A stretch of 48,970 nucleotides of DNA from a virus. Made by a program: the position numbers and the translations under genes. Location of the stretch: positions 1-48,970 of the IMG/VR virus record IMGVR_UViG_3300042691_009229, one strand, 5' to 3'. Positions 6,393-48,970 of this stretch are shown here, one piece after another. Under the pieces are notes generated by a model, which did not search any database, had not been told where the DNA came from, and saw only the letters and a program-made list of their open reading frames with translations. Every line of letters begins with the position of its first letter. Positions within the stretch are counted from its first letter, which is position 1.

Positions 6393-7484
6393 ATGTACTT
6401 ATCTTTAAGATCTAAATTAAAATATATGAATAATAATGTTAGGTTAGGTTATGCATGTGTCAATCAGACCTTGACTAATCGACCAAAAAAATTAGGTGGC
6501 CGTGTTACTACGAGTCGTACCTTACGCAAAGCTTCTTGGCATAGTAATTTTGATCTGCATAAGATTGGTGAGCTAGCTGTACAGAATGCTAAGGATTTAC
6601 TTACTTATCTTAAGTGGAACGAAGAGCATGGTATTCGTTTGTTTCGTGTAGGTTCTGAGCTTGTTCCATGGCATGATCATTTTGAGCTACACGACTTGCC
6701 TCAGTATGACTTATTGTCTATGCATCTTAAGTTAGCTGGTGATTATGCTAAGGCCCATGGGCATCGATTGACTACTCATCCTGGTCCATTTCATATCTTA
6801 GGTGCGCATGATGATGAGATTGTACGTAGAAGTATTATTGGTCTTGAGCGTCATTCTGAATTATTTGACCTTATGGGCTTTGAGCCTTCATATGAGAACA
6901 AGATCAATATTCATATCGGTGCTGCTTACAAAGATCCTGAGACTACTGCATATCGTTGGCTTAAGAATTATGACCGGTTATCTGATAACTGTAAAGCTCG
7001 ATTAGTAGTAGAGAATGACGATAAGGACTCTTTATATAGCGTTCAGATGTTACATGATCTTATCTATCGTAACGTCCAAGTACCTATTACCTTTGATTAT
7101 TATCATCATAAGTTTCATACTAGTGGTTTATCCGAGCAAGAAGCGCTGGAGTTAGCAGGTACTACCTGGCCTTCCAATGTACGCCAATGTTGTCATTATA
7201 GCGAATCTCGTCGACAAGAATATCAACTTATGTTTGATACGATGTGCCGTAACAATAACAAGACAATAGAAGAATTAGTTACGTTTCCTACTTTTGCTAA
7301 GATGAAAAAAGATTTTGATAAGATCAAAGAGCAGGCACATTCTGATTATATTATACAGCCAATTCAGACTTATGGGCATAATTTAGATATCATGCTTGAG
7401 GCTAAGGCTAAGGAGTTAGCTTTACTTAATTATCAGTATCTACCTGAACTAAATATATATACAAAAGAAAAGGAGTTAATATGA
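6393..7484 (+). CDS. uvsE: UV-damage endonuclease, UVDE/UvsE family
   Basis: A 363-residue TIM-barrel UV-damage endonuclease, which nicks DNA 5' to UV photoproducts and some other lesions. Family signatures: 'RLGYACVN' at residues 17-24, 'LFRVGSELVPW' near 83, 'RLTTHPGPFHILG' near 125, 'INIHIGAAYKD' near 172, 'RLVVENDD' near 203, and 'VPITFDYYHHKF' near 230. These supply the His, Glu and Asp metal ligands. The core begins at GYACVN, so a start at ATG 6426 is also plausible. The gene uses GAG for glutamate and CTT for leucine far more than its neighbours, a sign of separate origin. It overlaps the next small gene by 4 nt. Confidence 0.88.
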   Translation: MYLSLRSKLKYMNNNVRLGYACVNQTLTNRPKKLGGRVTTSRTLRKASWHSNFDLHKIGELAVQNAKDLLTYLKWNEEHGIRLFRVGSELVPWHDHFELHDLPQYDLLSMHLKLAGDYAKAHGHRLTTHPGPFHILGAHDDEIVRRSIIGLERHSELFDLMGFEPSYENKINIHIGAAYKDPETTAYRWLKNYDRLSDNCKARLVVENDDKDSLYSVQMLHDLIYRNVQVPITFDYYHHKFHTSGLSEQEALELAGTTWPSNVRQCCHYSESRRQEYQLMFDTMCRNNNKTIEELVTFPTFAKMKKDFDKIKEQAHSDYIIQPIQTYGHNLDIMLEAKAKELALLNYQYLPELNIYTKEKELI

Positions 7485-9217: not shown

Positions 9218-9838
9218 ATGAGTATATATAACGATAGGCCCAATACGCCAAACAATGACACTATTATAGTGCCAACTGAAACAGATAATCCTTATACTGT
9301 TATTAATGAACAAATTACTAACCTAGTAGATATCAATGATTCGGTTGTTTTTCTGAATGAAGATATTAATAACACTACTTTAATCAAACTTATGATTAAG
9401 ATACGTGCTATACTTGCTAATAGAACGGAAGGCGATAATAGTCCTATTAACTTAGTAATTAATTCATCTGGCGGTGATGTATATGAAATGTTAGGTATTA
9501 TTGATTATATTGAAACATTAGATGTTAAAGTAAATACAATATGCCGCGGCAGAGCAATGAGTTCAGCCGCAGTTATATTGGCATGTGGTACTGGTACGCG
9601 TTTGTGTAGTCGTAGATCAGCTGTAATGTTTCATCAGGCATCGACGGATTTATATGGTAAAACAACGGATATGAATTCTTATATTAAAAACTTAAACTTT
9701 ATTGAGGATAGTATCTCTGAGTTATTAGCATCTAAAACTAAAAAGGATGTTAAATGGTGGAAAGACAATCAAATATCAGATATGTATTTAACGCCAGAAC
9801 AATTATTAGAGTACGGAATTATTGACGAAATTATTTAA
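9218..9838 (+). CDS. clpP: ClpP-like serine protease
   Basis: A 206-residue protein of the ClpP/crotonase fold. 'INLVINSSGGDVYEMLGIID' (residues 77-96) is the conserved beta-strand and Gly-rich loop. 'GRAMSSAAVI' places the nucleophile at Ser115, 'VMFHQ' gives His139, and 'ISDMYLTPEQLLEYGIIDEI' gives Asp188, so the triad looks complete. The N-terminal ~40 residues extend beyond the usual protease core. No Clp ATPase is in the window, so it may pair with a host ATPase, act alone, or process phage proteins. The late promoter motif upstream suggests expression with the structural genes. Confidence 0.82.
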   Translation: MSIYNDRPNTPNNDTIIVPTETDNPYTVINEQITNLVDINDSVVFLNEDINNTTLIKLMIKIRAILANRTEGDNSPINLVINSSGGDVYEMLGIIDYIETLDVKVNTICRGRAMSSAAVILACGTGTRLCSRRSAVMFHQASTDLYGKTTDMNSYIKNLNFIEDSISELLASKTKKDVKWWKDNQISDMYLTPEQLLEYGIIDEII

Positions 9839-10885: not shown

Positions 10886-11658
10886 TGTCACCAGTTGAAG
10901 CATTTTATAGCGAACTAGAAGCTGATATAGCTATAGATCCTAAAGGTAAGAGAGGTAGAAAGCCAAGTAAAACACAGTACTTTACTATCACTACAGAGAA
11001 AGCAATTATTGCATATAACAAGGAAACTAGTCCCAATTTACGTAATAAGATCTACAGAGAATTTATCGATTATCCGTTTAATAAATTAGTTGAAAACATT
11101 TATCATACATTTAAGTTTAGTTATTTTGATGTACCATACGAAGATATTAAATGCGAAGTAGTTGCTTTCTTAAATGAAAAAATTGATAAGTTTACGGAAG
11201 GTAAAGGTAAAGCATTTAGTTACTTTAGTATTATAGCTAAGAACTATCTTATTATTCAAAACAATGCTAACTATGCTAAATTAAAACGCAAAGTCGAACC
11301 TATATTAATTGATGAGACTCGTAACTTAGGTACTGAAATGTCTATATCATCTTATCAAGAATCGTTACGTGACTTTACTAATTTATGGACAGAGTGGTAT
11401 GATGCTAACATGAGTATGATATTCACAAACAAGCGTGATATTATAATTGCCGATACTATTTTAGAACTATTTCGTATACGTGAATCAATTGAAGACTTTA
11501 ATAAAAAATCTATCTACATTTTAATTAGGGAACGTACAGGTCTTAAAACACAAAATATTACTCGAGTACTTAATGTCATGAAAGCTGATTTTACTCGTAT
11601 GTTTACTTATTATCAACACCACGGACGTCTATTACCATATGTAGCTGAATTTGCCTAG
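10885..11658 (+). CDS. gp55: Late-transcription sigma factor, T4 gp55-like
   Basis: A 257-residue protein resembling the T4 gp55 group. Residues ~62-140 hold a sigma region-2-like segment: 'NKLVENIYHTFKFSYFDVPY', 'EDIKCEVVAFLNEKIDKF', 'GKGKAFSYFSIIAKNYLIIQ' and then 'YAKLKRKVEPILIDE'. This matches the 'helix - F - KAF.YF..iakN' pattern of T4-type late sigma factors that bind core RNA polymerase and read the short late promoter. The N-terminus is a basic linker (KGKRGRKPSKTQ). The C-terminus (RERTGLKTQNITRVLNVMKA) could be an HTH. It is the natural reader of the TATTTATTA motifs, though direct evidence is lacking. Confidence 0.72.
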   Translation: MSPVEAFYSELEADIAIDPKGKRGRKPSKTQYFTITTEKAIIAYNKETSPNLRNKIYREFIDYPFNKLVENIYHTFKFSYFDVPYEDIKCEVVAFLNEKIDKFTEGKGKAFSYFSIIAKNYLIIQNNANYAKLKRKVEPILIDETRNLGTEMSISSYQESLRDFTNLWTEWYDANMSMIFTNKRDIIIADTILELFRIRESIEDFNKKSIYILIRERTGLKTQNITRVLNVMKADFTRMFTYYQHHGRLLPYVAEFA

Positions 11659-11664
11659 TTTTTA

Positions 11665-11673
11665 TATTTATAA
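11665..11673 (+). promoter_or_regulatory. Putative late promoter motif TATTTATAA
   Basis: TATTTATAA with 14 nt to the ATG at 11688; the spacer contains AAAAAAGG as ribosome-binding site. Its reverse complement contains TATAAATA, the T4 late consensus. Confidence 0.55.
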
Positions 11674-11687
11674 AAAAGGTAATCAGT

Positions 11688-12044
11688 ATGTCTACGGAAT
11701 TCGAATTATTTAAAGGTACATCTTTTTCAGACTTGATGAAAGATATATACCACAATTCAAAAAAGAAATCTAGGCAAATTGACGGTCTAATACAAGAGTT
11801 ACAGCCGTTAATTAAAAATGTAGGAGATGCAACTGTCATTGTACCTATGATCAAAGAATATCTAGAAGTATCTGTTAAAAATGATGATGCATTAGTTAAA
11901 TTAGCAGCTGTAGTACAGCGTCTAGTTTCTGCAAGTAATAAGTCTGAAGATGGCGGTGAGTTTGGTTTATCTGATGATGAACGCGAACGTCTATTGCGTG
12001 AAGCTGAAAAAGAAATTGAAACACTGCAAAGAAAACAGGAGTAA
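11688..12044 (+). CDS. Small helical protein at start of baseplate operon
   Basis: A 118-residue helical protein (MSTEFELFKGTSFSDLMKDI...), with Lys- and Glu-rich amphipathic helices and an acidic C-terminus (SDDERERLLREAEKEIETLQ). No family is recognised. It has a late motif and a good AAAAAAGG site and is followed four bases later by the gp5-like hub gene, so a role in tail or baseplate assembly is likely from context. Confidence 0.65.
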   Translation: MSTEFELFKGTSFSDLMKDIYHNSKKKSRQIDGLIQELQPLIKNVGDATVIVPMIKEYLEVSVKNDDALVKLAAVVQRLVSASNKSEDGGEFGLSDDERERLLREAEKEIETLQRKQE

Positions 12045-12047
12045 TAA

Positions 12048-13319
12048 ATGAATGTACATGCAGAAGTAGTAGATACTTCAATGGCATACAAAGAAACTGT
12101 TGATTCTACTGGTATTGTGTATCCGAAAGGTACTATTAAAGTACGTCTAGATAATGGTGGTAATAATAGTGGCCAACCGACAGAAGCATATGCTACACCA
12201 TTAAATGCTAATGATTTTGAAATACCAATAACCGGTGAACATGTATTATTAACAACGGCCAATACCAGTGATACAAATATAGATCGTATACGCACAGGTT
12301 ATTTTTATTCCAAGCCAATTAACGCTGTTAATAACTTAAACGTTAATGTATTGACAGGGTTTTATAATACCAAGGCAGTAAAATCTGGTGATCAGACATT
12401 ACAAAATGGTATACGTAATACTGACCAATCTACTAGTATATTCCAATCACCAAAACTATATACATTTGGTACGTCTAATTTATCTTTTCTTCAGCCATTT
12501 GAAGGCGATAGAATAATACAATCTAGATTTGGTTCAGCTATTAGATTTAGTTCAACTGTTAAAGGTGATACTAGTATTTATAACAACCGACCACCATGGG
12601 ACGGCAGCGCCGCTAACTCTCCTTTAATTGTTATAGCAAATGGTATATCATCTCTTACAAAAAATAGCTCGCAGTATGCTATTGAAAATATTAATGATGA
12701 TAATAGTTCTATTTACATAACATCAGAACAACAGGTAGACTTAAAACCATCACAGGTAATTAATGAAACAATATCTACTATTGGTAGTTATTCAAATTCA
12801 CAGGTTATTATTAATGCCGATCGTTTAGTTTTTAATTCCAAATCTAATAGTATCGTATTATCTGCATCAGAAACAATTGCCATGTCTACACCAGACTGGA
12901 AACTGGATATGAATAAGTTTTTTAACTTAATGTATCAGTTTGTTGATGAAGTAACTAAAATTGCAAATCAGCAAGAGACAATTGCAACTGGTGTTGGGCC
13001 TACTGGATTATCTACAAATGTAGCTAAATTTATACAGATATTCAATGACTTGACTGCAATGAAATCATCTGGTGGTACTCCAATAGCATCTATTAGTACA
13101 CCAGAAATTGTTACGCCTGCAGCTAATTTAGATACACAGACTACATTGGCAATAACTGATACCGCTACTTTAGATCCTACTGGTGCTAGTACAGTTACTA
13201 CATCACAAACACCAATCACCCAAACTACACCGGTTAGTACGGCAGCCGAATCATCATATCAAGGAATTGGTAATTCCGTCGATACTGCATCAAATGACTC
13301 TTTTGATACACTTGAGTAA
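12048..13319 (+). CDS. Baseplate hub protein, gp5-like OB-fold type
   Basis: A 423-residue structural protein. Residues ~1-85 give an OB-fold-like beta barrel ('GIVYPKGTIKVRL', 'IPITGEHVLLT'), the part of T4 gp5 that links spike and hub. Residues ~155-175 contain 'QPFEGDRIIQSRFGSAIRFS', a signature I associate with hub proteins of marine T4-like phages. There is no lysozyme domain and no clear triple-helix spike, so hydrolysis probably falls to the CHAP protein encoded next. The C-terminal ~100 residues are Thr/Ser/Ala-rich and disordered. Confidence 0.7.
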   Translation: MNVHAEVVDTSMAYKETVDSTGIVYPKGTIKVRLDNGGNNSGQPTEAYATPLNANDFEIPITGEHVLLTTANTSDTNIDRIRTGYFYSKPINAVNNLNVNVLTGFYNTKAVKSGDQTLQNGIRNTDQSTSIFQSPKLYTFGTSNLSFLQPFEGDRIIQSRFGSAIRFSSTVKGDTSIYNNRPPWDGSAANSPLIVIANGISSLTKNSSQYAIENINDDNSSIYITSEQQVDLKPSQVINETISTIGSYSNSQVIINADRLVFNSKSNSIVLSASETIAMSTPDWKLDMNKFFNLMYQFVDEVTKIANQQETIATGVGPTGLSTNVAKFIQIFNDLTAMKSSGGTPIASISTPEIVTPAANLDTQTTLAITDTATLDPTGASTVTTSQTPITQTTPVSTAAESSYQGIGNSVDTASNDSFDTLE

Positions 13320-34261: not shown

Positions 34262-37200
34262 ATGCCGTTACGTAAACGTGTAGGTTATTTTGGCTTACGT
34301 GATTTATCTTATTCAATAATAGATACTAGTGAAAATTCACCAAACTTTTTTCGGATAATTGAATTTCCTGAAAAGTTTAAAGCTGGTAAAAATCTTATTA
34401 AGATATCAGCAAATCGTGAATATTTAGTTGATGGTAGTGAAATACATATTGAAATACTAGATTATAATAATAACCCAGTTTATTACGAACCTATCCGTTA
34501 CGTAGAAAAAGATGGTACACGTGTAATTGCAGTTTATATCTACCCGGATACATCGCCAGGTGATTGTACTGTATTTTTAGCAGGAAGGGCTTCTCAAGAC
34601 CCCAGTACTGGTAATCTATATCGTTTTAGTAAAAATAGTAATGACGCTGATTATTTTCAAGTACCAAATGTTATTTGGTCGCGTAAATGTAATGTAGCAC
34701 CAAAGGCATCAAACGATATTGAAATAATATTCACACAACAACCTAGAGTTACTATAACAGAAATAGTACAGCCTTATTTGCAACCAGTTAATTTAACTAA
34801 TATATTTACTCAGGTAAGTAGTAGTGGTACTATATCATTAAGTACTCCATCTACATTAGCACGTACAGGGCTTACTGATATTGATAGTTCAGTTGCAGAA
34901 GGAGCAGGGTCTACTCGTACGCCGTCATTCGGTAGACAATTTTATAATAATAACACTGTACAGTCGCAATTAACTGATACATCTGCAGCAGTTACAGTAT
35001 CTCCGACACTGCAAACTTTAACTGGATACTCCACTGTAACAACTAGTCAGCCATTTTTCTCAGCAAGTATGGTTAACGGTACGTTAACTGTAAAAAATCC
35101 GATATTGACTATTAGTGGATTAACGGCTGGTGCTAATAATTTAGTATATCCAGCATCGCAGTTTAATGAAACAACTAATGATTATGGAGGTGCGACACGC
35201 GCATTGAGCGGTTCATATGATTTTGCAATCGTACAGGTACTTAATAATACATCAGCACGTGTATCACAAATTGGTGGATTTCTTAATGGTGAAGATACAT
35301 TAGGTCAATTTAATGTTAGTTTGTTGTCTGTTGGAACATCTGGTACATCAATTCGTGATTCGCGTGATTATACATTATATAACGTAAATAGTTTTAACGC
35401 GTCTTCAGATTTTACAGCTAGTTTTATAAAGCCTTCTGAAGTAATATACACCGAAAATTCTGCTAGCTTTGCTGATATTATATTATCAAATACAGAACCA
35501 GCAACCGGCGATGTATATCGTATTAAAACATTATTTAAACCTAGTGGTCAATTTGGTGATTTTATTGATTTAGGTGATACTATAGTAGAACAGACAGATA
35601 TATTAATTGATACAAGTTCTTTAGAAACTAATGTAACAGTTGGTTCATATTATGAAAATTTTGGAACAATAGAAAGTTTATCTGAAATAAACACATACTG
35701 GACAGCATCGGCATTGGGTACAATTAGTACATCTAATCCAATGACCATTGCATATGATATGGATACACTAGTCGGTGGAATAAAAATGACACCTACAACT
35801 ACTGCGTTTCAAGATAATGATGCGGTTATATTATCAATTAAACCACAATATAATCCAAGAGTATATAAAGATACGGAATATATTGTAGTATTTAATATAG
35901 CAAATACATCTAATATAACATCATTTTCATCGACAAATACTAATATACCTAATGCGCGTTTAGATGTTTATATATCCGGATCTGCGGTTACATCTCAAGA
36001 AGCATTTAAACGAGTCACTACCGGTGATGTACTACCAGTAAGTAATTTTAATTCGACGGTTATTAATAATTTTAAAGATAATGGAGTACTAGGTTCACGT
36101 ATTGGTACATATGAAACAACTAAAGTACCAGAAGCAAATGCTACAGTAACATTTAGATTTATTGCAACAGAAGATAAACCTATTGATTTAAAATTTGTAA
36201 CACGTCATGGTGCATTTATAATAAGTGATATTCAAGTTTTGGCTAATCAAGAGACTGGATTTTCACCTAATTATATACGTATTAATAAAAGAATACCGAC
36301 AGAGCATCTTAAAACGCCATTAACGTTTAAGTTTCAATATTTTGATTTTCGTGGACGTAAAGCTGATACTGAAACTATAGCTTATGGTGCGGTATTTGAT
36401 GGCGATAACACATATATAAATGGTACTAATAATCTATTAACAGGCTCTGTATATATAGGTAATGGTATTGGTACTGGTATTGAAATGGCCGGTGTAAATT
36501 CAGGTTTTATACGTTCGATAGGATATGAAGGATTTATATCAGCATCAGATCCAGCAAAAGGTGGCGCACCCGGATGGATGTTGTATTCAGGATCAGTACT
36601 ACCAAATTCGGGTGATAATTATTCAGGTGTAGGACTTGAACTAGTTGCTGGATCTGATAATTACTTTAAATACGGAACGTCAAATGGCGGCTCATTAGAA
36701 GTACGTACTAACAAATTCTTTTTAGGTAGTGCTAATCAATTTATTTCTGGGGCAAATGGTAATATAGAAATATCATCTAGTAATTTTCATTTAACTGCTC
36801 AAGGTAATGTAACAGCATCAAATGCATTATTTACTGGTGTGGCATTAGCAAATATAATACGCGATAAAACCGTAGTTATAACAGCCGCAAACTCTGCTAG
36901 TTATTTTGACCGTTATGATTATAGTAGTAATCTAGGCGACCAGTGGGCATATTGGTTACGATTAGATGGTAACAATGGCGGAGAGCAAGTACGACGTGTG
37001 ACAATTAATTGTGATTTATTGTATCCATTAGGAAAAATTGCATTTCCTAGTTTAGGTAATAGTTCTAGGATTGATATTATTATAGAAAATAACGTAGCCG
37101 GTAATGAAATTTTAGATATATTCAATGTTGAAAAAGGTACTATCACAAATCCAGCTAGAGTATCATTACCAGCAGGAGCCGTAATGCAACTTGCCTCTGT

Positions 37201-37780
37201 ATTTCCTGGTACATCACAAACAGATTGGAATTGTATTGGTGGTAGTATACAGCCATTCTCTGGATATACATATAAACGCGGTGTAATTGTAACAGGTTCG
37301 TTAGAAGTTACGGGTTCATTAATAATGAACAACAATAAGCAGTTTAATCATGGAGCTTTTAGTAATACATCTAGCATAACAAATCCAGGGGCTAATGTAT
37401 CGGCTTCATTTACATATACTACGGTAGATGTTGCTGACGGTATAACGTATACAAACAACTCTCGTATACAATTTCCGAATGATGGAGTATACAATATACA
37501 ATTTTCAGCTCAAATAGATAACATCAGCGGAGCAGATGATGTGTATATATGGTTAAAGAAAAACGGTCAGAATATTGCAAATACCGCAACACAAATAACT
37601 GCCGCAAATAATATAACAACTGTTGCAGCATGGAATTGGGTATATTCATTTTTAAACGCTGATTATGCGGAAATTGCATGGCAAACTAGCGCAGGAAATG
37701 CTATAATTGATGCATTCCCTGCCTTAGGGAACATACCAGCTATACCAAGTGTAATAGTAACCGTAACGCAAGTAGCGTAA
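34262..37780 (+). CDS. Tail fibre-like large structural protein
   Basis: A 1172-residue protein. The N-terminal ~130 residues ('RVGYFGLRDLSYSIIDTSEN', 'PVYYEPIRYVEKDGTRVIAV') are a beta-rich attachment-type region. A Thr/Ser/Asn-rich repetitive shaft follows. Around residues 815-865 it has 'GGSLEVRTNKFFLGSANQFI', 'SGANGNIEISSSNFHL', a pattern I recall from tail fibres of marine T4-like phages. The last ~130 residues ('IQFPNDGVYNIQFSAQIDNI', 'DDVYIWLKKNGQNI', 'WQTSAGNAIIDA') resemble a C1q/TNF-like jelly-roll head, a likely receptor-binding tip. It is preceded by a late motif. Confidence 0.75.
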   Translation: MPLRKRVGYFGLRDLSYSIIDTSENSPNFFRIIEFPEKFKAGKNLIKISANREYLVDGSEIHIEILDYNNNPVYYEPIRYVEKDGTRVIAVYIYPDTSPGDCTVFLAGRASQDPSTGNLYRFSKNSNDADYFQVPNVIWSRKCNVAPKASNDIEIIFTQQPRVTITEIVQPYLQPVNLTNIFTQVSSSGTISLSTPSTLARTGLTDIDSSVAEGAGSTRTPSFGRQFYNNNTVQSQLTDTSAAVTVSPTLQTLTGYSTVTTSQPFFSASMVNGTLTVKNPILTISGLTAGANNLVYPASQFNETTNDYGGATRALSGSYDFAIVQVLNNTSARVSQIGGFLNGEDTLGQFNVSLLSVGTSGTSIRDSRDYTLYNVNSFNASSDFTASFIKPSEVIYTENSASFADIILSNTEPATGDVYRIKTLFKPSGQFGDFIDLGDTIVEQTDILIDTSSLETNVTVGSYYENFGTIESLSEINTYWTASALGTISTSNPMTIAYDMDTLVGGIKMTPTTTAFQDNDAVILSIKPQYNPRVYKDTEYIVVFNIANTSNITSFSSTNTNIPNARLDVYISGSAVTSQEAFKRVTTGDVLPVSNFNSTVINNFKDNGVLGSRIGTYETTKVPEANATVTFRFIATEDKPIDLKFVTRHGAFIISDIQVLANQETGFSPNYIRINKRIPTEHLKTPLTFKFQYFDFRGRKADTETIAYGAVFDGDNTYINGTNNLLTGSVYIGNGIGTGIEMAGVNSGFIRSIGYEGFISASDPAKGGAPGWMLYSGSVLPNSGDNYSGVGLELVAGSDNYFKYGTSNGGSLEVRTNKFFLGSANQFISGANGNIEISSSNFHLTAQGNVTASNALFTGVALANIIRDKTVVITAANSASYFDRYDYSSNLGDQWAYWLRLDGNNGGEQVRRVTINCDLLYPLGKIAFPSLGNSSRIDIIIENNVAGNEILDIFNVEKGTITNPARVSLPAGAVMQLASVFPGTSQTDWNCIGGSIQPFSGYTYKRGVIVTGSLEVTGSLIMNNNKQFNHGAFSNTSSITNPGANVSASFTYTTVDVADGITYTNNSRIQFPNDGVYNIQFSAQIDNISGADDVYIWLKKNGQNIANTATQITAANNITTVAAWNWVYSFLNADYAEIAWQTSAGNAIIDAFPALGNIPAIPSVIVTVTQVA

Positions 37781-37801: not shown

Positions 37802-39463
37802 ATGAATTTAGGTGAATGGCTAGTAGAACAAATCATAACTGAAGATACTAATATTAAACAAATCATAGCTGTATACCCAGGACGTTTTCAACCATTTGGT
37901 CGTCATCATGCAGAAGCATTTCGCTGGTTACAAAAACAATTCGGCGCTAACAATGCATTTGTAGTTACTAGTGATAAAGTGGAAAAACCTAAATCGCCAT
38001 TTTCATTTGCTGATAAAAAACTTATAATCGGTCAGTATGGTATTAAAAATGTAATACAAGTTAAGAATCCATATAAAGCCGAAGAGTTATTATCACAATA
38101 CGATCCAGCCACTACTGCGGTAGTATTTATGGTTGGTGATAAGGATATGCAAGAAGATCCTAGATTCCGTATTGGTAAACTTAAGTCTGGTAAAGATTCT
38201 TATTTCCAAGATTATAAAACACATAAAAACAATATGGTCGGATATGACCAACATGGATACTTAATTGTAGCACCTCATGTATCATTAAACATTCCAGGAT
38301 ATGGAGAAATGTCAGGAACGGCATTAAGAGCTGCATTAAAAAACGGTACACCAGAAACATTTAAAAAAATATTAGGATGGGATGATATGAAGTTAGTTGA
38401 TTTAGTAAAAGATCGTTTATCAGAAGGACTGATAACAGAAGGTGGTGCTGGTGGACACATGGCACATCCATTTGATATTGATTGGGTAAAGACTGGAAAG
38501 GATCTAGTTAAAGTATTTGTACAGTCAGCTGAATACCTAAAGAAAGGACCAGCCTCTGTTAAAATTGATGGCGTAAATGCTAGTATTCGTTTAGTAGATG
38601 TCGATGGTAAAAAAGTGTTTGTAATGGACCGCGGTTCTAATAAACCATTAGATGTTAAAGGTATTACAAAAGCTGATTTAGAAGATCGTTTTGGTGTGGG
38701 CCATGGTATGATTATTATTGGTGGAAAAGTATTAGATATATTTAATGACGCATTACCAGATATTACGCCAATGCTTAAGAAATTAGGAATGTGGGACAAT
38801 CCAAATATTTTGTTTAATATTGAATATGTAGCTGGTAGTACTAATGTATTATCATATAATAAAAACTTCTTAGCTATACACGGATTGCTAGAAATTGAAC
38901 AAGTAACTCCAAAGCGTAGAGCTACTAAAGAGATTTCATATAATAAAAAAGCATTGCAAGACTTATTAAATGCTTTAGCTCCGACTGCTAATGAAAATGG
39001 ATATGAGGTATTAGGATCAGTTCCTACTACATTAGATTCAGATCCGGACTTTCAAGGCGAATTAGCAAAGAAATATACTGTTATTGTTAATGGTAAAAAA
39101 GTATCAAAGACATTGAGCCAATGGTTAGCTACTGCTACTAATCAAAAAGAAACTATGATTAAATTAGCAGATGGTAAAACGGTAGGTGCTCAAAGTAAAC
39201 AAATATTAATGGCAATTGCAGATAAAAAGGATGTAGCCGAGTTAGTAGCAGATCCTGCAGATCAACAAAAAGCAATTGACGGATTTGTTATGTATTTAGC
39301 TACTATGGAACTAGGAAATGCAGTACTAGAAGCATTAAGTTCTCCACTAGGTCCAGTACGTGAACATGAAGGTATTGTAATACGTGATCCTAAAATATAC
39401 AGTAAACCATTTAAGATTACTGGTAGATTCATAGTTAAAGGATTAGAATCATCTTTTAGATAA
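37802..39463 (+). CDS. Nucleotidyltransferase fused to a ligase-fold domain
   Basis: A 553-residue two-domain protein. Residues ~20-195 are a cytidylyltransferase/NMNAT-type fold: 'YPGRFQPFGRHHAEAF' (25-40, the HxGH region in altered form, G-R-H-H) and 'MSGTALRAALKNG' (170-182, the ISxTxxR-like motif). Residues ~225-550 carry motifs of covalent nucleotidyltransferases (DNA/RNA ligases, capping enzymes): motif I 'KIDG' with Lys254, 'NIEYVAG' (339-345), motif IV 'HEGIVIR' (522-528) and motif V-like 'GRFIVKG' (541-547). The first residues (EWLVEQIITEDT) resemble a capsid-targeting peptide, and L-S-E-G and I-T-E-G sites (207-214) lie between the domains. Its substrate is unknown; NAD or RNA metabolism is plausible. 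Confidence 0.7.
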   Translation: MNLGEWLVEQIITEDTNIKQIIAVYPGRFQPFGRHHAEAFRWLQKQFGANNAFVVTSDKVEKPKSPFSFADKKLIIGQYGIKNVIQVKNPYKAEELLSQYDPATTAVVFMVGDKDMQEDPRFRIGKLKSGKDSYFQDYKTHKNNMVGYDQHGYLIVAPHVSLNIPGYGEMSGTALRAALKNGTPETFKKILGWDDMKLVDLVKDRLSEGLITEGGAGGHMAHPFDIDWVKTGKDLVKVFVQSAEYLKKGPASVKIDGVNASIRLVDVDGKKVFVMDRGSNKPLDVKGITKADLEDRFGVGHGMIIIGGKVLDIFNDALPDITPMLKKLGMWDNPNILFNIEYVAGSTNVLSYNKNFLAIHGLLEIEQVTPKRRATKEISYNKKALQDLLNALAPTANENGYEVLGSVPTTLDSDPDFQGELAKKYTVIVNGKKVSKTLSQWLATATNQKETMIKLADGKTVGAQSKQILMAIADKKDVAELVADPADQQKAIDGFVMYLATMELGNAVLEALSSPLGPVREHEGIVIRDPKIYSKPFKITGRFIVKGLESSFR

Positions 39464-42041: not shown

Positions 42042-43625
42042 ATGGCACAGAAAAGTTTACGTGAAATAATTTCAGAAGAATACAAACGTTGTGCAGTGGA
42101 TCCTATCCATTTCATGCGCAAGTATTGTATTATTCAACATCCCACAAAAGGTAAAATGTATTTTAACCTTTATCCATTTCAGGAAGAGGTATTAACATCC
42201 TTACAACATAACCGATATAGTGTAATACTTAAATCGCGTCAGTTAGGTATATCAACAGTAACTGCTGGTTATGTGTTATGGGCAATGCTGTTTAAATCAG
42301 ATTATAATGTATTAGTTATTGCAACTACTCAAGACGTTGCTAAAAACTTGGTTACAAAGATACGTGTAATGCACGAAAATCTTCCTAGTTGGTTAAAGGG
42401 TACGTCTATTGAAGATAACAAATTATCCTTACGCTTTAAGAACGGTTCTCAAGTTAAAGCTGTATCAAGTACTGGTACTGCCGGTCGTTCTGAAGCATTA
42501 TCTCTTTTAGTAATTGATGAGGCAGCGTTTATTAGAAACATTGATGAAATATGGACATCGGCTCAACAAACACTTGCGACAGGTGGTGGATGTATTTCTT
42601 TATCTACTCCTAATGGTACTGGTAATTGGTTTCATAAAATTTGGTCAGATGCGGAAGCGGGTGGTCAATTTCATCCGATAAAACTGCATTGGACAGTACA
42701 TCCAGATCGTGATGACAAATGGAGAGTTCAACAGACAGAGTTGTTAGGAGAAAAACAAGCAGCCCAAGAATGTGATTGTGACTTTATATCATCAGGACAT
42801 ACTGTTATTGACGGTCCTATTCTGCAATGGTATGAACAAACATATATTAAAGAGCCAATAGAAAAACGTGGATTTGATAGTAATTATTGGGTATGGGAAT
42901 ATCCAGAATACGGTACTAACAAAAGCTATGCAGTTGTAGCTGACGTTGCCCGAGGCGATGGAGCAGACTATTCAGCTTTCCATGTTATAGAAATCAATTC
43001 AATGACTCAAGTAGCTGAATATCGTGGTAAGATAGGAACAACTGATTACGGTAATATGCTTGTATCTGTAGCAACTGAATATGATAATGCCTTACTAGTA
43101 ATTGAAAATGCTAATATAGGATGGGCAGTACTACAAGTAGCGATAGATCGTAATTACAATAACTTATATTATTCATATCGTTCAGATGCATATGTAGATG
43201 AAAATGTACATTTAGCAAAAGGATATGATTTGAAAAGTAAGTCAGATAAAGTTCCTGGCTTTTCAATGAATTCAAAAACTCGTCCACTTGTAATATCTAA
43301 ACTAGAAACATATTTTCGTGAAAAAAGTCCAGTAGTACGTAGTAAACGATTAATAGATGAACTGTTAGTATTTATATGGACTGGTCAACGTGCAGAAGCA
43401 CAAAGAGGTTATAATGATGACTTGGTAATGTCCTTTGGTACCGCTTTATGGGTACGTGATACAGCACTTCGTCTACATCAACAAGGTATAGATTTATCTA
43501 GAAAAACGTTAGGTCATTTTGGCAAGACTACCCCGGGTGTATATAGTAGTAATAATACTGCTGCTAATAATAGTTGGTCATGGGGTACAGCTAATGGAAA
43601 CGAGAGCCTTACCTGGCTTATCTAA
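42042..43625 (+). CDS. gp17: Terminase large subunit gp17
   Basis: A 527-residue packaging motor. The ATPase domain has Walker A 'KSRQLGIST' (64-72), Walker B 'LLVIDEAAF' (155-163) and the coupling region 'SLSTPNGTGNWFHKIW' (187-201). The nuclease domain starts near residue 295 with 'AVVADVARGDGADYSAFHVI' (Asp301, Asp306/Asp309) and continues to 'YNDDLVMSFGTALWV'. It cuts concatemeric DNA and pumps it into the prohead. The small subunit is not seen in this window. The start follows an A-rich leader without a late motif. Confidence 0.93.
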   Translation: MAQKSLREIISEEYKRCAVDPIHFMRKYCIIQHPTKGKMYFNLYPFQEEVLTSLQHNRYSVILKSRQLGISTVTAGYVLWAMLFKSDYNVLVIATTQDVAKNLVTKIRVMHENLPSWLKGTSIEDNKLSLRFKNGSQVKAVSSTGTAGRSEALSLLVIDEAAFIRNIDEIWTSAQQTLATGGGCISLSTPNGTGNWFHKIWSDAEAGGQFHPIKLHWTVHPDRDDKWRVQQTELLGEKQAAQECDCDFISSGHTVIDGPILQWYEQTYIKEPIEKRGFDSNYWVWEYPEYGTNKSYAVVADVARGDGADYSAFHVIEINSMTQVAEYRGKIGTTDYGNMLVSVATEYDNALLVIENANIGWAVLQVAIDRNYNNLYYSYRSDAYVDENVHLAKGYDLKSKSDKVPGFSMNSKTRPLVISKLETYFREKSPVVRSKRLIDELLVFIWTGQRAEAQRGYNDDLVMSFGTALWVRDTALRLHQQGIDLSRKTLGHFGKTTPGVYSSNNTAANNSWSWGTANGNESLTWLI

Positions 43626-43647: not shown

Positions 43648-45549
43648 ATGGCAGATACTTCACTACAAGCTAGACTTAAACGACTGTTTTCAACTAATGT
43701 CGTTGTGCGTAGAATAGCAAAAAACCGTTTAAAGGCTATTGATACTAATAAGTTACAATCAAACGGTTCATTGTCAACAACTGCATATATAGATCGTTTT
43801 GCCGGTCTACATAGAGGTCAAGGAGGCCAGTCAGTTTACAATGGTACATATAACTTTCATCAATCTAAAGTAGAATTATTTTCAGATTATGAGGCTATGG
43901 ATTTAGATCCTATTATCGCATCGGCATTAGACATATATGCAGATGAAAGTACAGTTAAAGATTCGGAAGGTGATACTTTAACAATATCATCGCCTAATAA
44001 TGAAATACGTAAAGTACTTCATAATTTGTTTTATGATATACTTAATATAGATTATAATTTATGGCCATGGATACGTAATGCTTGTAAGTATGGAGACTTT
44101 TATCTTTATCTAGATATTGAAGATGAGTTAGGAGTTATTAATGTAATTCCAATGTCTGCATATGAAATGGTACGTGAAGAAGGATATGATCAAGAAAATC
44201 CATATGCATATCGATTTGTAATGCAAGGTGCTCATACTACTACTAGACATTTTGCGGGTACCGGAGGACAAAATCCACGTAATGAATTTGAAAATTACCA
44301 AATAGCTCATTTCCGTTTATTATCAGATACTAATTTCTTACCATATGGTAAATCAATGATTGAACCAGCACGTAAGATTTTTAAACAACTTACGTTGATG
44401 GAAGATGCTATGTTAATACATCGTATTATGAGAGCACCAGAACGTCGTATTTTTAAAATTGATGTCGGTAATATACCACCTAACGAAGTTGATAGTTATA
44501 TGCAACAGATTATCAACAAGATGAAAAAGACCCCGTATATTGATGAAACAACTGGGCAATATAATTTAAAGTTTAATATACAAAACATGATGGAAGACTA
44601 TTATCTTCCGGTACGTGGTGGAGATTCGGGAACAGCTATTGATACATTATCTGGATTAAGTTCGGATGGTCAGATTGAAGATATTGAATACTTACGTAAT
44701 AAAATGCATGCCGCTCTTAAAATACCTAAAGCATTTTTAGGATATGATGAAGGTGTAGAAGGTAAAGCTACTTTAGCGGCTGAAGATGTACGTTTTGCTA
44801 GAACTATTGAACGTATACAAAAAATATTCGTATCAGAGTTAACTAAAATTGCTATTGTACATTTATATGCACAAGGATTCCGTGATGAAGATTTGGTTAA
44901 TTTTAGTTTATCACTAACTAACCCATCATTAATATATGAAAAGCAAAAAATTGAATCTCTTAATGAAAAGGTAAGTTTGGCCGGTAATCTTAAAGAGACT
45001 ACCATGTTTTCAGAAAAATATATTTATGAAAATGTATTTGGATTAAGTGAAGAAGAATGGCAAGCTGAACGTGAATTAGTTATTGAGGACTTAAAACAAG
45101 ACTTCCGTAAGGAACAAATTAAGTCAGAAGGTAATGATCCAAAGAAAACTAATATGAGTTTTGGTACACCTCATGATATTGCTAGTATGCACGTTGCTAA
45201 TAAAGGTGGATTGTTACCAGGTATGGAGCAAGAACATGTAGCCGGGCCAGGAAGACCTCAAGAGCCAGGTACTTGGGGTAGCCATGCAAGTCCGCATGGA
45301 AGAGATCCATTAGGTATTAAAGATTTAGGTAAAACATTTACTACTGATAAATCACCATTACAACATAATTTCCGTGGTGGTAGTGCATTAAGTACGGAGC
45401 ATATTGATACTAAAGCTATAATAAAATCAATGGCTAGTAAAGTAAAAACAAAACAAGTATTAAAAGAGTCATTAGATATTGAGATTAAAAATGATGATGC
45501 TGGTACTATGTTAGATGAAAACAATTTACTAGATATAAATTTAACATAA
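43648..45549 (+). CDS. gp20: Portal protein gp20
   Basis: A 633-residue portal (head-to-tail connector) of the T4 gp20 type. Diagnostic stretches: 'YEAMDLDPIIASALDIYADE' (around 72-91), 'GDFYLYLDIEDELGVINVIP', 'PYGKSMIEPARKIFKQLTLM', 'EDAMLIHRIMRAPERRIFKI', 'GGDSGTAIDTLSGLSSDGQI' and 'DIEYLRNKMHAALKIPKAFL'. The C-terminal ~100 residues are a Gly/His/Pro-rich, disordered tail, as in many marine T4-like portals. It sits between terminase and head genes as in T4. It forms the dodecameric ring through which DNA is packaged. Confidence 0.93.
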   Translation: MADTSLQARLKRLFSTNVVVRRIAKNRLKAIDTNKLQSNGSLSTTAYIDRFAGLHRGQGGQSVYNGTYNFHQSKVELFSDYEAMDLDPIIASALDIYADESTVKDSEGDTLTISSPNNEIRKVLHNLFYDILNIDYNLWPWIRNACKYGDFYLYLDIEDELGVINVIPMSAYEMVREEGYDQENPYAYRFVMQGAHTTTRHFAGTGGQNPRNEFENYQIAHFRLLSDTNFLPYGKSMIEPARKIFKQLTLMEDAMLIHRIMRAPERRIFKIDVGNIPPNEVDSYMQQIINKMKKTPYIDETTGQYNLKFNIQNMMEDYYLPVRGGDSGTAIDTLSGLSSDGQIEDIEYLRNKMHAALKIPKAFLGYDEGVEGKATLAAEDVRFARTIERIQKIFVSELTKIAIVHLYAQGFRDEDLVNFSLSLTNPSLIYEKQKIESLNEKVSLAGNLKETTMFSEKYIYENVFGLSEEEWQAERELVIEDLKQDFRKEQIKSEGNDPKKTNMSFGTPHDIASMHVANKGGLLPGMEQEHVAGPGRPQEPGTWGSHASPHGRDPLGIKDLGKTFTTDKSPLQHNFRGGSALSTEHIDTKAIIKSMASKVKTKQVLKESLDIEIKNDDAGTMLDENNLLDINLT

Positions 45550-48378: not shown

Positions 48379-48970
48379 ATGAGCAAACAACTTTTAGTTG
48401 ATTATACAGTATTTGAAGTATCACCTCAACAAATAAACGAATCATTAACACAAAATAACGGACGTTTAATTGTTAATGGAGTACTACAACGTGCTAATGC
48501 TCAGAATCAAAACGGCCGTGTATATCCAATGGAAATATTACAACGTGAAGCAAAAAAATATAGTCAAACATTTATTGCGGAACGTAGAGCATTAGGAGAA
48601 CTAGACCATCCAGATTCATCTGTTGTTAATTTGAATAACGTTAGTCATAATGTATTAGGTATGAATTGGAATGGTAACGATCTTGTCGGTACAGTAGAAA
48701 TTCTCAATACACCGTCAGGTAATATACTTAAAGCATTATTTCAATCAGGAATTCGTTTAGGTATTTCATCACGCGGCATGGGGTCAGTTAAAGAAGTAAT
48801 GCGTGAAGGAAATGCTACATTAGTAGTACAAGATGACTTTGATTTGATTGCATTTGACTTTGTAAGTAATCCATCCACCCACGGAGCTTTCTTATCACCC
48901 GTCAATGAGTCAGTTAATAAAGTAATAAATGACAAATACGGTCATATAAATCGTATTATACAAGATATCA
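48379..48970 (+). CDS. gp21: Prohead protease gp21, partial
   Basis: The first 197 codons of a prohead protease, cut by the window end. The start ATG is at 48379, two bases after the previous stop. Signatures: 'GELDHPDSS' (around residues 73-81, His77) and 'RLGISSRGMGS' (126-136, with the catalytic Ser in GISS), matching the T4 gp21/herpes-protease-like fold. It matures head proteins by cutting after hydrophobic-x-Glu. Its own sequence contains I-N-E-S (residues 19-22) and V-N-E-S near residue 175, possible self-processing sites. Confidence 0.9.
   Translation, partial: MSKQLLVDYTVFEVSPQQINESLTQNNGRLIVNGVLQRANAQNQNGRVYPMEILQREAKKYSQTFIAERRALGELDHPDSSVVNLNNVSHNVLGMNWNGNDLVGTVEILNTPSGNILKALFQSGIRLGISSRGMGSVKEVMREGNATLVVQDDFDLIAFDFVSNPSTHGAFLSPVNESVNKVINDKYGHINRIIQDI

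Follow-up and report, generated by a model that had tools for sequence, protein, structure and literature searches.

The gene at positions 37802-39463 of the viral fragment IMGVR_UViG_3300042691_009229, which at its full 48,970 bases is the window analysed here, raises the question of what two nucleotidyl-transferring domains are doing in one chain among the structural genes of a phage, and whether that chain is destined for the virion. The ORF is complete (ATG at 37802, stop codon ending at 39463, 553 amino acids), and an AlphaFold2 model of the full-length protein has a pLDDT of 91.9. It is flanked on one side by a large structural-looking gene (34262-37780), and on the other by genes leading to the large terminase (42042-43625), with a T4-type portal gene at 43648-45549. 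An earlier note on this DNA had placed the gene among virion genes, and the presence of terminase, portal and prohead protease in the same window bears this out; a location among tail and head genes, taken alone, nonetheless proves nothing about packaging.

37802-39463, plus strand: whole gene, HIGH-type adenylyltransferase plus ligase-type covalent nucleotidyltransferase (ORF, AlphaFold2 model)
48379-48969, continuing past the window end, plus strand: T4-type prohead core protease (Peptidase_S77; PF03420 E 2e-27, phrog_207 E 4e-54)

Elsewhere in the window are a gene for the UV-damage endonuclease UvdE (6393-7484, E 1e-51) and one for a ClpP-like protease (9218-9838) that matches head-maturation-protease PHROGs and is additional to the T4-type prohead protease at 48379.

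The C-terminal part of the protein, residues 214-553, contains the following features.

38441-39460, plus strand: ligase-type covalent nucleotidyltransferase domain, residues 214-553 (AlphaFold model, VIA-align)
38561-38572, plus strand: motif I KIDG, K254 being the presumed nucleotidyl-lysine (K, D and G invariant in 47 relatives)
38627-38638, plus strand: DRGS (residues 276-279), counterpart of motif Ia (KRTG in T4 Rnl2), conserved in at least 90%
38813-38827, plus strand: motif III FNIEY, with E341 (invariant)
38867-38884, plus strand: motif IIIa FLAIHG, with H360 (invariant)
39368-39385, plus strand: motif IV EGIVIR, with E523 (invariant)
39413-39424, plus strand: motif V KITG, with K538 (invariant) in P-F-K538-I-T-G-x-F-I

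Modelled separately, this domain reaches a pLDDT of 93.3 and a pTM of 0.88, and VIA-align returns ligases or capping enzymes in all of the best 50 rows listed (Z 5.5-8.8). The top match is T4 Rnl1, with a Z of 8.8 over 178 residues at 3.9 A, where values of 8-9 are moderate; the Naegleria RNA ligase (7.4), T4 Rnl2 (6.5) and DNA ligases (5.5-6) are also matched. T4 Rnl1 is likewise first in a Foldseek search, at low to modest confidence (E 7e-3, prob 0.75). Among 47 diverse relatives, down to 23% identity, residues K254, D256, G257, N259, E341, H360, E523 and K538 are invariant, and they follow one another as do motifs I, III, IIIa, IV and V in covalent nucleotidyltransferases. In the T4 record, the Rnl2 motifs KIHGTNFS, KRTG, FGEF, FYVFDI, EGYVLK and KCKNSK follow one another in the same order as their counterparts KIDGVNAS, DRGS, FNIEY, FLAIHG, EGIVIR and KITG in the window protein, with a particular resemblance between K-I-D-G-x-N-x-S and the K-I-H-G-T-N-F-S of Rnl2 at motif I. 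The earlier note had read covalent-nucleotidyltransferase motifs in this domain, and both the fold matches and the invariant residues agree; structure prediction, which might have found no ligase fold around K254, places one there. The motifs lie at the positions it gave (KIDG at 254-257, E341 within FNIEYVAG, EGIVIR at 523-528, IVKG at 544-547, and, in the first domain, GRFQPFGRHH at 27-36 and SGTALR at 171-176). Its choice of IVKG as motif V has to be abandoned, as K546 varies among relatives (ILGG, IVGG, ITGK) and motif V is at K538.

Sequence comparison sets the domain apart from the named ligase families. No family in Pfam or the PHROGs covers it, its profile finds no ligase among PDB sequences, and an hhalign comparison with T4 Rnl2 alone aligns only motif IV, without significance. 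The RNA_ligase family PF09414, which above its curated cut-off defines the Rnl2 type, has no match to the window domain and matches five of the 47 members weakly and below that cut-off (best E 0.004); in L062 and L075 the match takes in only the motif IV-V end or C-terminal quarter (E 0.025-0.06), and L062 scores 15.1 bits against a cut-off of 27. For the Rnl1 type (PF09511), hmmscan of the window protein and the 47 domain members gives no match. The likeness to T4 Rnl1, Rnl2 and their relatives is one of predicted fold and of the ordered series of motifs from I and Ia through III, IIIa and IV to V, and about 180 of the 340 residues form the structural core that aligns with ligases. Two features are specific to the family: roughly 140 residues inserted between IIIa and IV, and a conserved GGxxGHMxHPF segment at the N-terminal end. 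Past motif V there is nothing resembling the separate OB-fold domain found in DNA ligases; the chain ends 15 residues beyond K538. The window domain is also fused to an adenylyltransferase and is probably head cargo, whereas the T4 RNA ligases are expressed in the cell.

With the nucleotidyltransferase fold in the predicted structure and motifs I, III, IV (EG) and V in order, the domain falls within the covalent nucleotidyltransferase superfamily. The consistent VIA-align list together with the motifs makes the ligase-type assignment firm: the domain almost certainly has the fold and active-site equipment of a ligase, and is very likely to be catalytically active, as predicted. That its target is RNA, rather than DNA or something else, is a prediction we moderately favour; the fold alone does not settle this.

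The N-terminal domain has the following features.

37853-38422, plus strand: HIGH-superfamily adenylyltransferase domain, NMNAT/PPAT fold, residues 18-207 (profile matches, VIA-align)
37880-37909, plus strand: GRFQPFGRHH, NMNAT-type nucleotide-binding motif in which HxGH has become GxHH (sequence, alignment)
38312-38329, plus strand: SGTALR, equivalent to (I/S)SSTxxR in HIGH adenylyltransferases (alignment)

The Pfam CTP_transf_like match to this domain is slightly under the cut-off (E 0.0015), PHROG 'cytidyltransferase' families match it at E 5e-6, and a profile built from ten relatives matches solved PPAT/NMNAT chains (E 1.8e-4 to 2.1e-3). In the whole-protein model, residues 18-210 align with PPAT, NadD, NadM and archaeal NMNAT at VIA-align Z values of 11-12 over 143-160 residues, so that the NMNAT/cytidylyltransferase-type fold originally proposed stands, with PPAT/NMNAT closest. 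The domain therefore has the Rossmann-like adenylyltransferase fold of the HIGH superfamily; the (H/T)xGH signature is replaced by GxHH in the clade of the window protein. This alteration, which the earlier note had taken to leave the activity open, is real and clade-specific (G/S/A-x-H-H), and canonical HxGH is retained in L011, L012 and L100, relatives with reversed domain order or separate genes. Both S171 and R176 are invariant in the ten first-domain relatives. Purifying selection acts on both domains, with dN/dS of 0.06-0.11 for the ligase-type domain and 0.14-0.18 for the adenylyltransferase, and from the latter value it follows that the first domain is not decaying and that GxHH is more likely a functional variant of HxGH than a loss of function. 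Because the Rnl Pfam models and the HxGH signature do not fit, the protein is filed in two superfamilies and in no named family.

The substrate of the first domain is a separate matter. With NMN adenylyltransferases (NadM and archaeal NMNAT) and PPAT it shares the fold, the GRFQP motif and the SGTxxR motif, from which it differs in having GxHH for HxGH and a ligase-type domain fused on. The GRFQP and KSPF motifs resemble those of archaeal/NadM-type NMNAT, and a prediction of NMN adenylyltransferase activity has roughly an even chance of being correct, GRFQP being suggestive only. Phage NadM is said to be always accompanied by a phage nicotinamide phosphoribosyltransferase (PMC9503650). This enzyme is found in one of 13 relatives' contigs, several of which are fragments, and the NAD+ reading is weakened as a result; NAD+ salvage by way of such an enzyme was rejected as a general context.

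Relatives of the window protein are numerous, and their architectures bear on whether the two domains need one another. In scans of IMG/VR, 498 of 600 candidates were confirmed for the ligase-type domain and 579 of 600 for the adenylyltransferase. The loci that were read include 66 distinct fusions in the N-C order of the window protein and eight in the C-N order, and in L012, L013, L014, L096, L099, L100 and L101 the domains are adjacent genes, some of which overlap. A diverged member with the adenylyltransferase-E↓GG-ligase order (the arrow marking a predicted cut) retains it at about 30% identity (hhalign E 7e-12); it lies at L184:4221-6170, on a 400-kb contig binned as Erysipelotrichaceae and possibly from a jumbo phage. 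As the domains are fused in either order, occur as adjacent genes and stay together at this distance, the pairing appears to be old and modular. In cellular genomes only six contigs with the family were found, the 400-kb one among them, and these are likely viral. The family is also present in an isolate, Microcystis phage Mel-JY01, with the gene at 11243-13162. Neither the window nor any of six loci has tRNA genes near the family genes. A recurrent linker peptide, DPCWxGYxQxGxKKKGxxxVPNCVxE, is present in L010:4998-6932, L026:5254-7029 and L027:4295-6706.

Other partners are also encountered. In L061 and L076, the ligase-type domain is joined to a different HIGH adenylyltransferase, a HAD-type DFDDT module (recognised by motif, the profile match being weak) and DUF192 (E 4e-21 and 2e-20). 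In L016-L019 and L150, the same adenylyltransferase as in the window is joined to a Pol-beta-like module (GTTGKKxxSGDLDL, by motif) and DUF6267. Upstream of the fusion in L172, a free HAD gene matches a phage polynucleotide-kinase PHROG (E 3.5e-6), and a weak Pol-beta-type nucleotidyltransferase gene is present as well; at L172:48-7095 the HAD phosphatase gene, with the leader-like start MLKKWKQFLSE, the Pol-beta-type gene and the C-N fusion are clustered. By analogy, the HAD phosphatase and Pol-beta-like partners may resemble a kit for healing and sealing RNA ends (compare PMC7824862).

DUF6267 (PF19782, phrog_455), at L150:7348-8445, L016:6378-7475 and L116:7612-8766, has invariant KWDG, GD, EGYV and K-x-V-x-R. 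Like the ligase-type domain, it stands after the same adenylyltransferase in related phages, mostly with an LxE junction, whereas the two domains align only weakly and around motif I alone (hhalign E 2.4e-4), and PF19782 matches L150 and L116 in hmmscan, with no match for the window protein or its C-terminal domain. Judged from its sequence, DUF6267 is probably another phage ligase-type nucleotidyltransferase.

The boundary between the two domains is suggestive of proteolytic processing.

38429-38440, plus strand: LITE↓GG, predicted prohead-protease site after E213 (relatives' consensus, low pLDDT)

Of 117 distinct sequences, 105 have the pattern [LI]xE directly before GG, a pattern with a background frequency of 0.92% elsewhere; the sequences share ancestry and are not phylogenetically independent. 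The T4 prohead protease cleaves after L/I-x-E (PMC9026906). Residues 209-212 of the window protein have a pLDDT below 50 in the model, and in leaderless ligase-type members the protein begins at these very glycines (MGGAAGHM in L087, MGGGSGGHM in L172), which independently places a mature N-terminus there. In seven sequences the E is replaced by C. In four of the loci concerned, L050, L115, L120 (L120:5986-8457) and L163, an HNH-like segment (HNH by eye) is inserted in frame exactly at [LI]xE↓GG, and the downstream junction in these loci is LLxC↓GG; a group I intron as the cause of the insertions was rejected, Rfam giving no match. The same junction C is seen in L005-L008 without the HNH segment, perhaps as a scar. 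Cleavage of the window protein between its domains is a prediction from sequence, and one that we consider likely.

The start of the protein has a second candidate site.

37802-37843, plus strand: putative capsid-targeting leader MNLGEWLVEQIITE followed by D, residues 1-14, with a predicted cut after E14 (leader conserved in relatives)

Ahead of the adenylyltransferase, the window protein and a subset of relatives carry a putative leader of the type M(N)LGxWLxxQ(I/L)(I/L)xE; others start at the domain, and several fusions are without any N-terminal leader. The proposal that an N-terminal helix ending in x-E marks the packaged proteins of this phage is weak in the window, where [LI]xE falls within residues 4-24 of 15 of the 50 gene products, the expectation being 20%. 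This is not a clear enrichment, so N-terminal [LI]xE by itself was not used as evidence, and the case for packaging is built on the relatives instead. In L012, the separate genes start MITFKQFLLE↓GG (ligase-type) and MKTFKQYISE↓V (adenylyltransferase), and in L011, where the ligase-type domain is first in the chain, the leader is MKTFKNYILNE↓GG. These L012 leaders are nearly those of the T4 internal proteins, with IPII and IPIII starting MKTYQEFIAE↓A and IPI starting MKTFKEF in the T4 record. The prohead protease family is found in 13 of 15 relatives' contigs, including all ten of at least 93 kb, and the gp21-family protease at 48379-48969 puts the enzyme expected of a T4-type internal protein in the same genome. 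The T4 internal-protein leader is removed by gp21 after L/I-x-E (PMC9026906). The L/I-x-E site and the protease, along with the putative leader type, are common to the window protein, IPI-IPIII and Alt, whereas the window gene has such a site between two enzyme domains as well, and may be a two-enzyme cargo precursor; in Alt, cutting takes place at both ends of the protein and at no point between enzymes (PMC9026906).

NMNAT-like proteins have been reported from virions. Mass spectrometry of CsCl-purified particles is described in two studies as identifying NMNAT-like/cytidylyltransferase proteins in S-CREM2, S-SCSM1, S-CBWM1 and S-SZBM1, both also warning of possible carry-over (PMC10665884, PMC9602691). 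The cytidylyltransferase gp154 of S-CREM2 starts MKNFSSFLTE↓ADEK and keeps HKGH (its record); nearby gp156, also listed as virion-detected, has the Pol-beta-type motif GGNANYNYTPYSDIDLHLV. The stretch from gp154 to gp156 is L177:6609-8726. The first-domain profile does not detect gp154, which is too diverged, so that the relation is by annotation and motif only. As far as these sources go, such proteins (S-CREM2 gp154, S-SCSM1 ORF91, S-CBWM1) share with the window protein a HIGH-type adenylyltransferase, detected in their case in virions, whereas gp154 is free-standing and distant in sequence, and a ligase-type partner is not described in the portions available (PMC10665884, PMC9602691). Polyvalent proteins and packaged NAD-ADPr effectors (Iyer, Burroughs, Aravind; PMC9503650) are likewise multidomain and proposed to be virion-carried and deployed early, whereas the available text of that paper mentions neither a HIGH adenylyltransferase-ligase fusion nor a protease site between modules. 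Overall, the comparison with relatives makes the window protein a putative, and indeed probable, component of the head.

The best single reading combines packaging, splitting and RNA repair by the ligase, and has about an even chance of holding as a whole, its components not being independent of one another. The gene would encode, as one precursor, two enzymes that the phage directs to its head. The N-terminal leader would direct the protein to the prohead core, where the T4-type prohead protease encoded nearby would remove the leader after E14 and separate the domains by cutting after E213, and both mature enzymes would be ejected along with the DNA. With less certainty, the second enzyme may self-adenylylate at K254 and, in the opening minutes and ahead of phage gene expression, reseal broken RNA, the likeliest target being tRNAs that host anticodon nucleases have cleaved; the first may adenylylate a nucleotide, for which NMN, yielding NAD+, is the most plausible candidate. 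By analogy, the protein can probably be understood as an NMNAT-like enzyme linked to a counterpart of the T4 RNA ligases, with delivery in the manner of the T4 internal proteins. The scheme originally suggested, in which a cofactor made by the first domain is transferred by the second, is not supported: the predicted protease site at the junction makes it probable that the enzymes come apart in the head, relatives encode them as separate genes, and ATP is all that a ligase requires.

A single uncut bifunctional enzyme, unpackaged and acting in the infected cell, where the first site makes NAD+ or another dinucleotide for the second, is one rival to this reading. The fusion is stable in the 66 N-C relatives sampled, some fusions are leaderless, and a late-gene position does not prove packaging. 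However, reversed order and separate genes make obligate coupling improbable, the junction is flexible and carries the protease-site consensus, and the leaders are like T4 capsid-targeting sequences, so that we regard an uncut enzyme as quite unlikely. An alternative that accepts both packaging and cutting is that the ligase-type domain acts on DNA, or AMP-tags a protein or small molecule. Its fold matches include DNA ligases and capping enzymes (Z 5.5-6), and the cargo injected alongside is DNA, with nicks or ends that could serve as substrate. Against this, RNA ligases rank first and score highest in both Foldseek and VIA-align, motif I (KIxGxNxS) is T4-Rnl2-like, the HAD phosphatase and Pol-beta-like partners recall RNA-repair sets, and the separate OB-fold domain is absent; we consider this alternative unlikely.

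The emphasis could also be reversed, with restoration of NAD+ by the first domain as the main task, countering NADase-based host defences, and the ligase-type domain as an accessory or structural internal protein. The NadM-like GRFQP and KSPF motifs fit such a role, as does the recurrence of NMNAT-like proteins in cyanophage virions (PMC9602691, PMC10665884). Yet it is the ligase-type domain that has the lower dN/dS and keeps all of its catalytic motifs, HxGH is altered in the clade of the window protein, and the nicotinamide phosphoribosyltransferase was found in only one of the 13 contigs, which leaves this explanation improbable. The preferred reading thus remains a packaged precursor, cut in the head, whose ligase repairs RNA.

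Head-packaged proteins, such as T4 Alt and the IP proteins, and phage RNA ligases are already known. In the literature searched, neither head cargo of the ligase type nor a cargo precursor processed between two enzymes is described, and this GGxxGHMxHPF ligase-type family is likewise absent from it. As a tentative generalisation, T4-like phages may encode head-packaged enzyme polyproteins, single chains of reshuffled modules separated by prohead-protease sites, which would be matured in the prohead and injected to reverse the RNA damage that host defences cause as infection begins; the modules would, equally tentatively, comprise the HIGH adenylyltransferase, the HAD phosphatase, the Pol-beta nucleotidyltransferase, the new RNA-ligase family and DUF6267. 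If the preferred reading is true, it would add an unrecognised ligase family present in hundreds of viral-contig stretches (the 498 confirmed candidates), give DUF6267 a testable function, and suggest that the NMNAT-like proteins of cyanophage virions may belong to a repair kit. Phages so equipped could counter tRNA-cleaving defences ahead of any phage gene expression.
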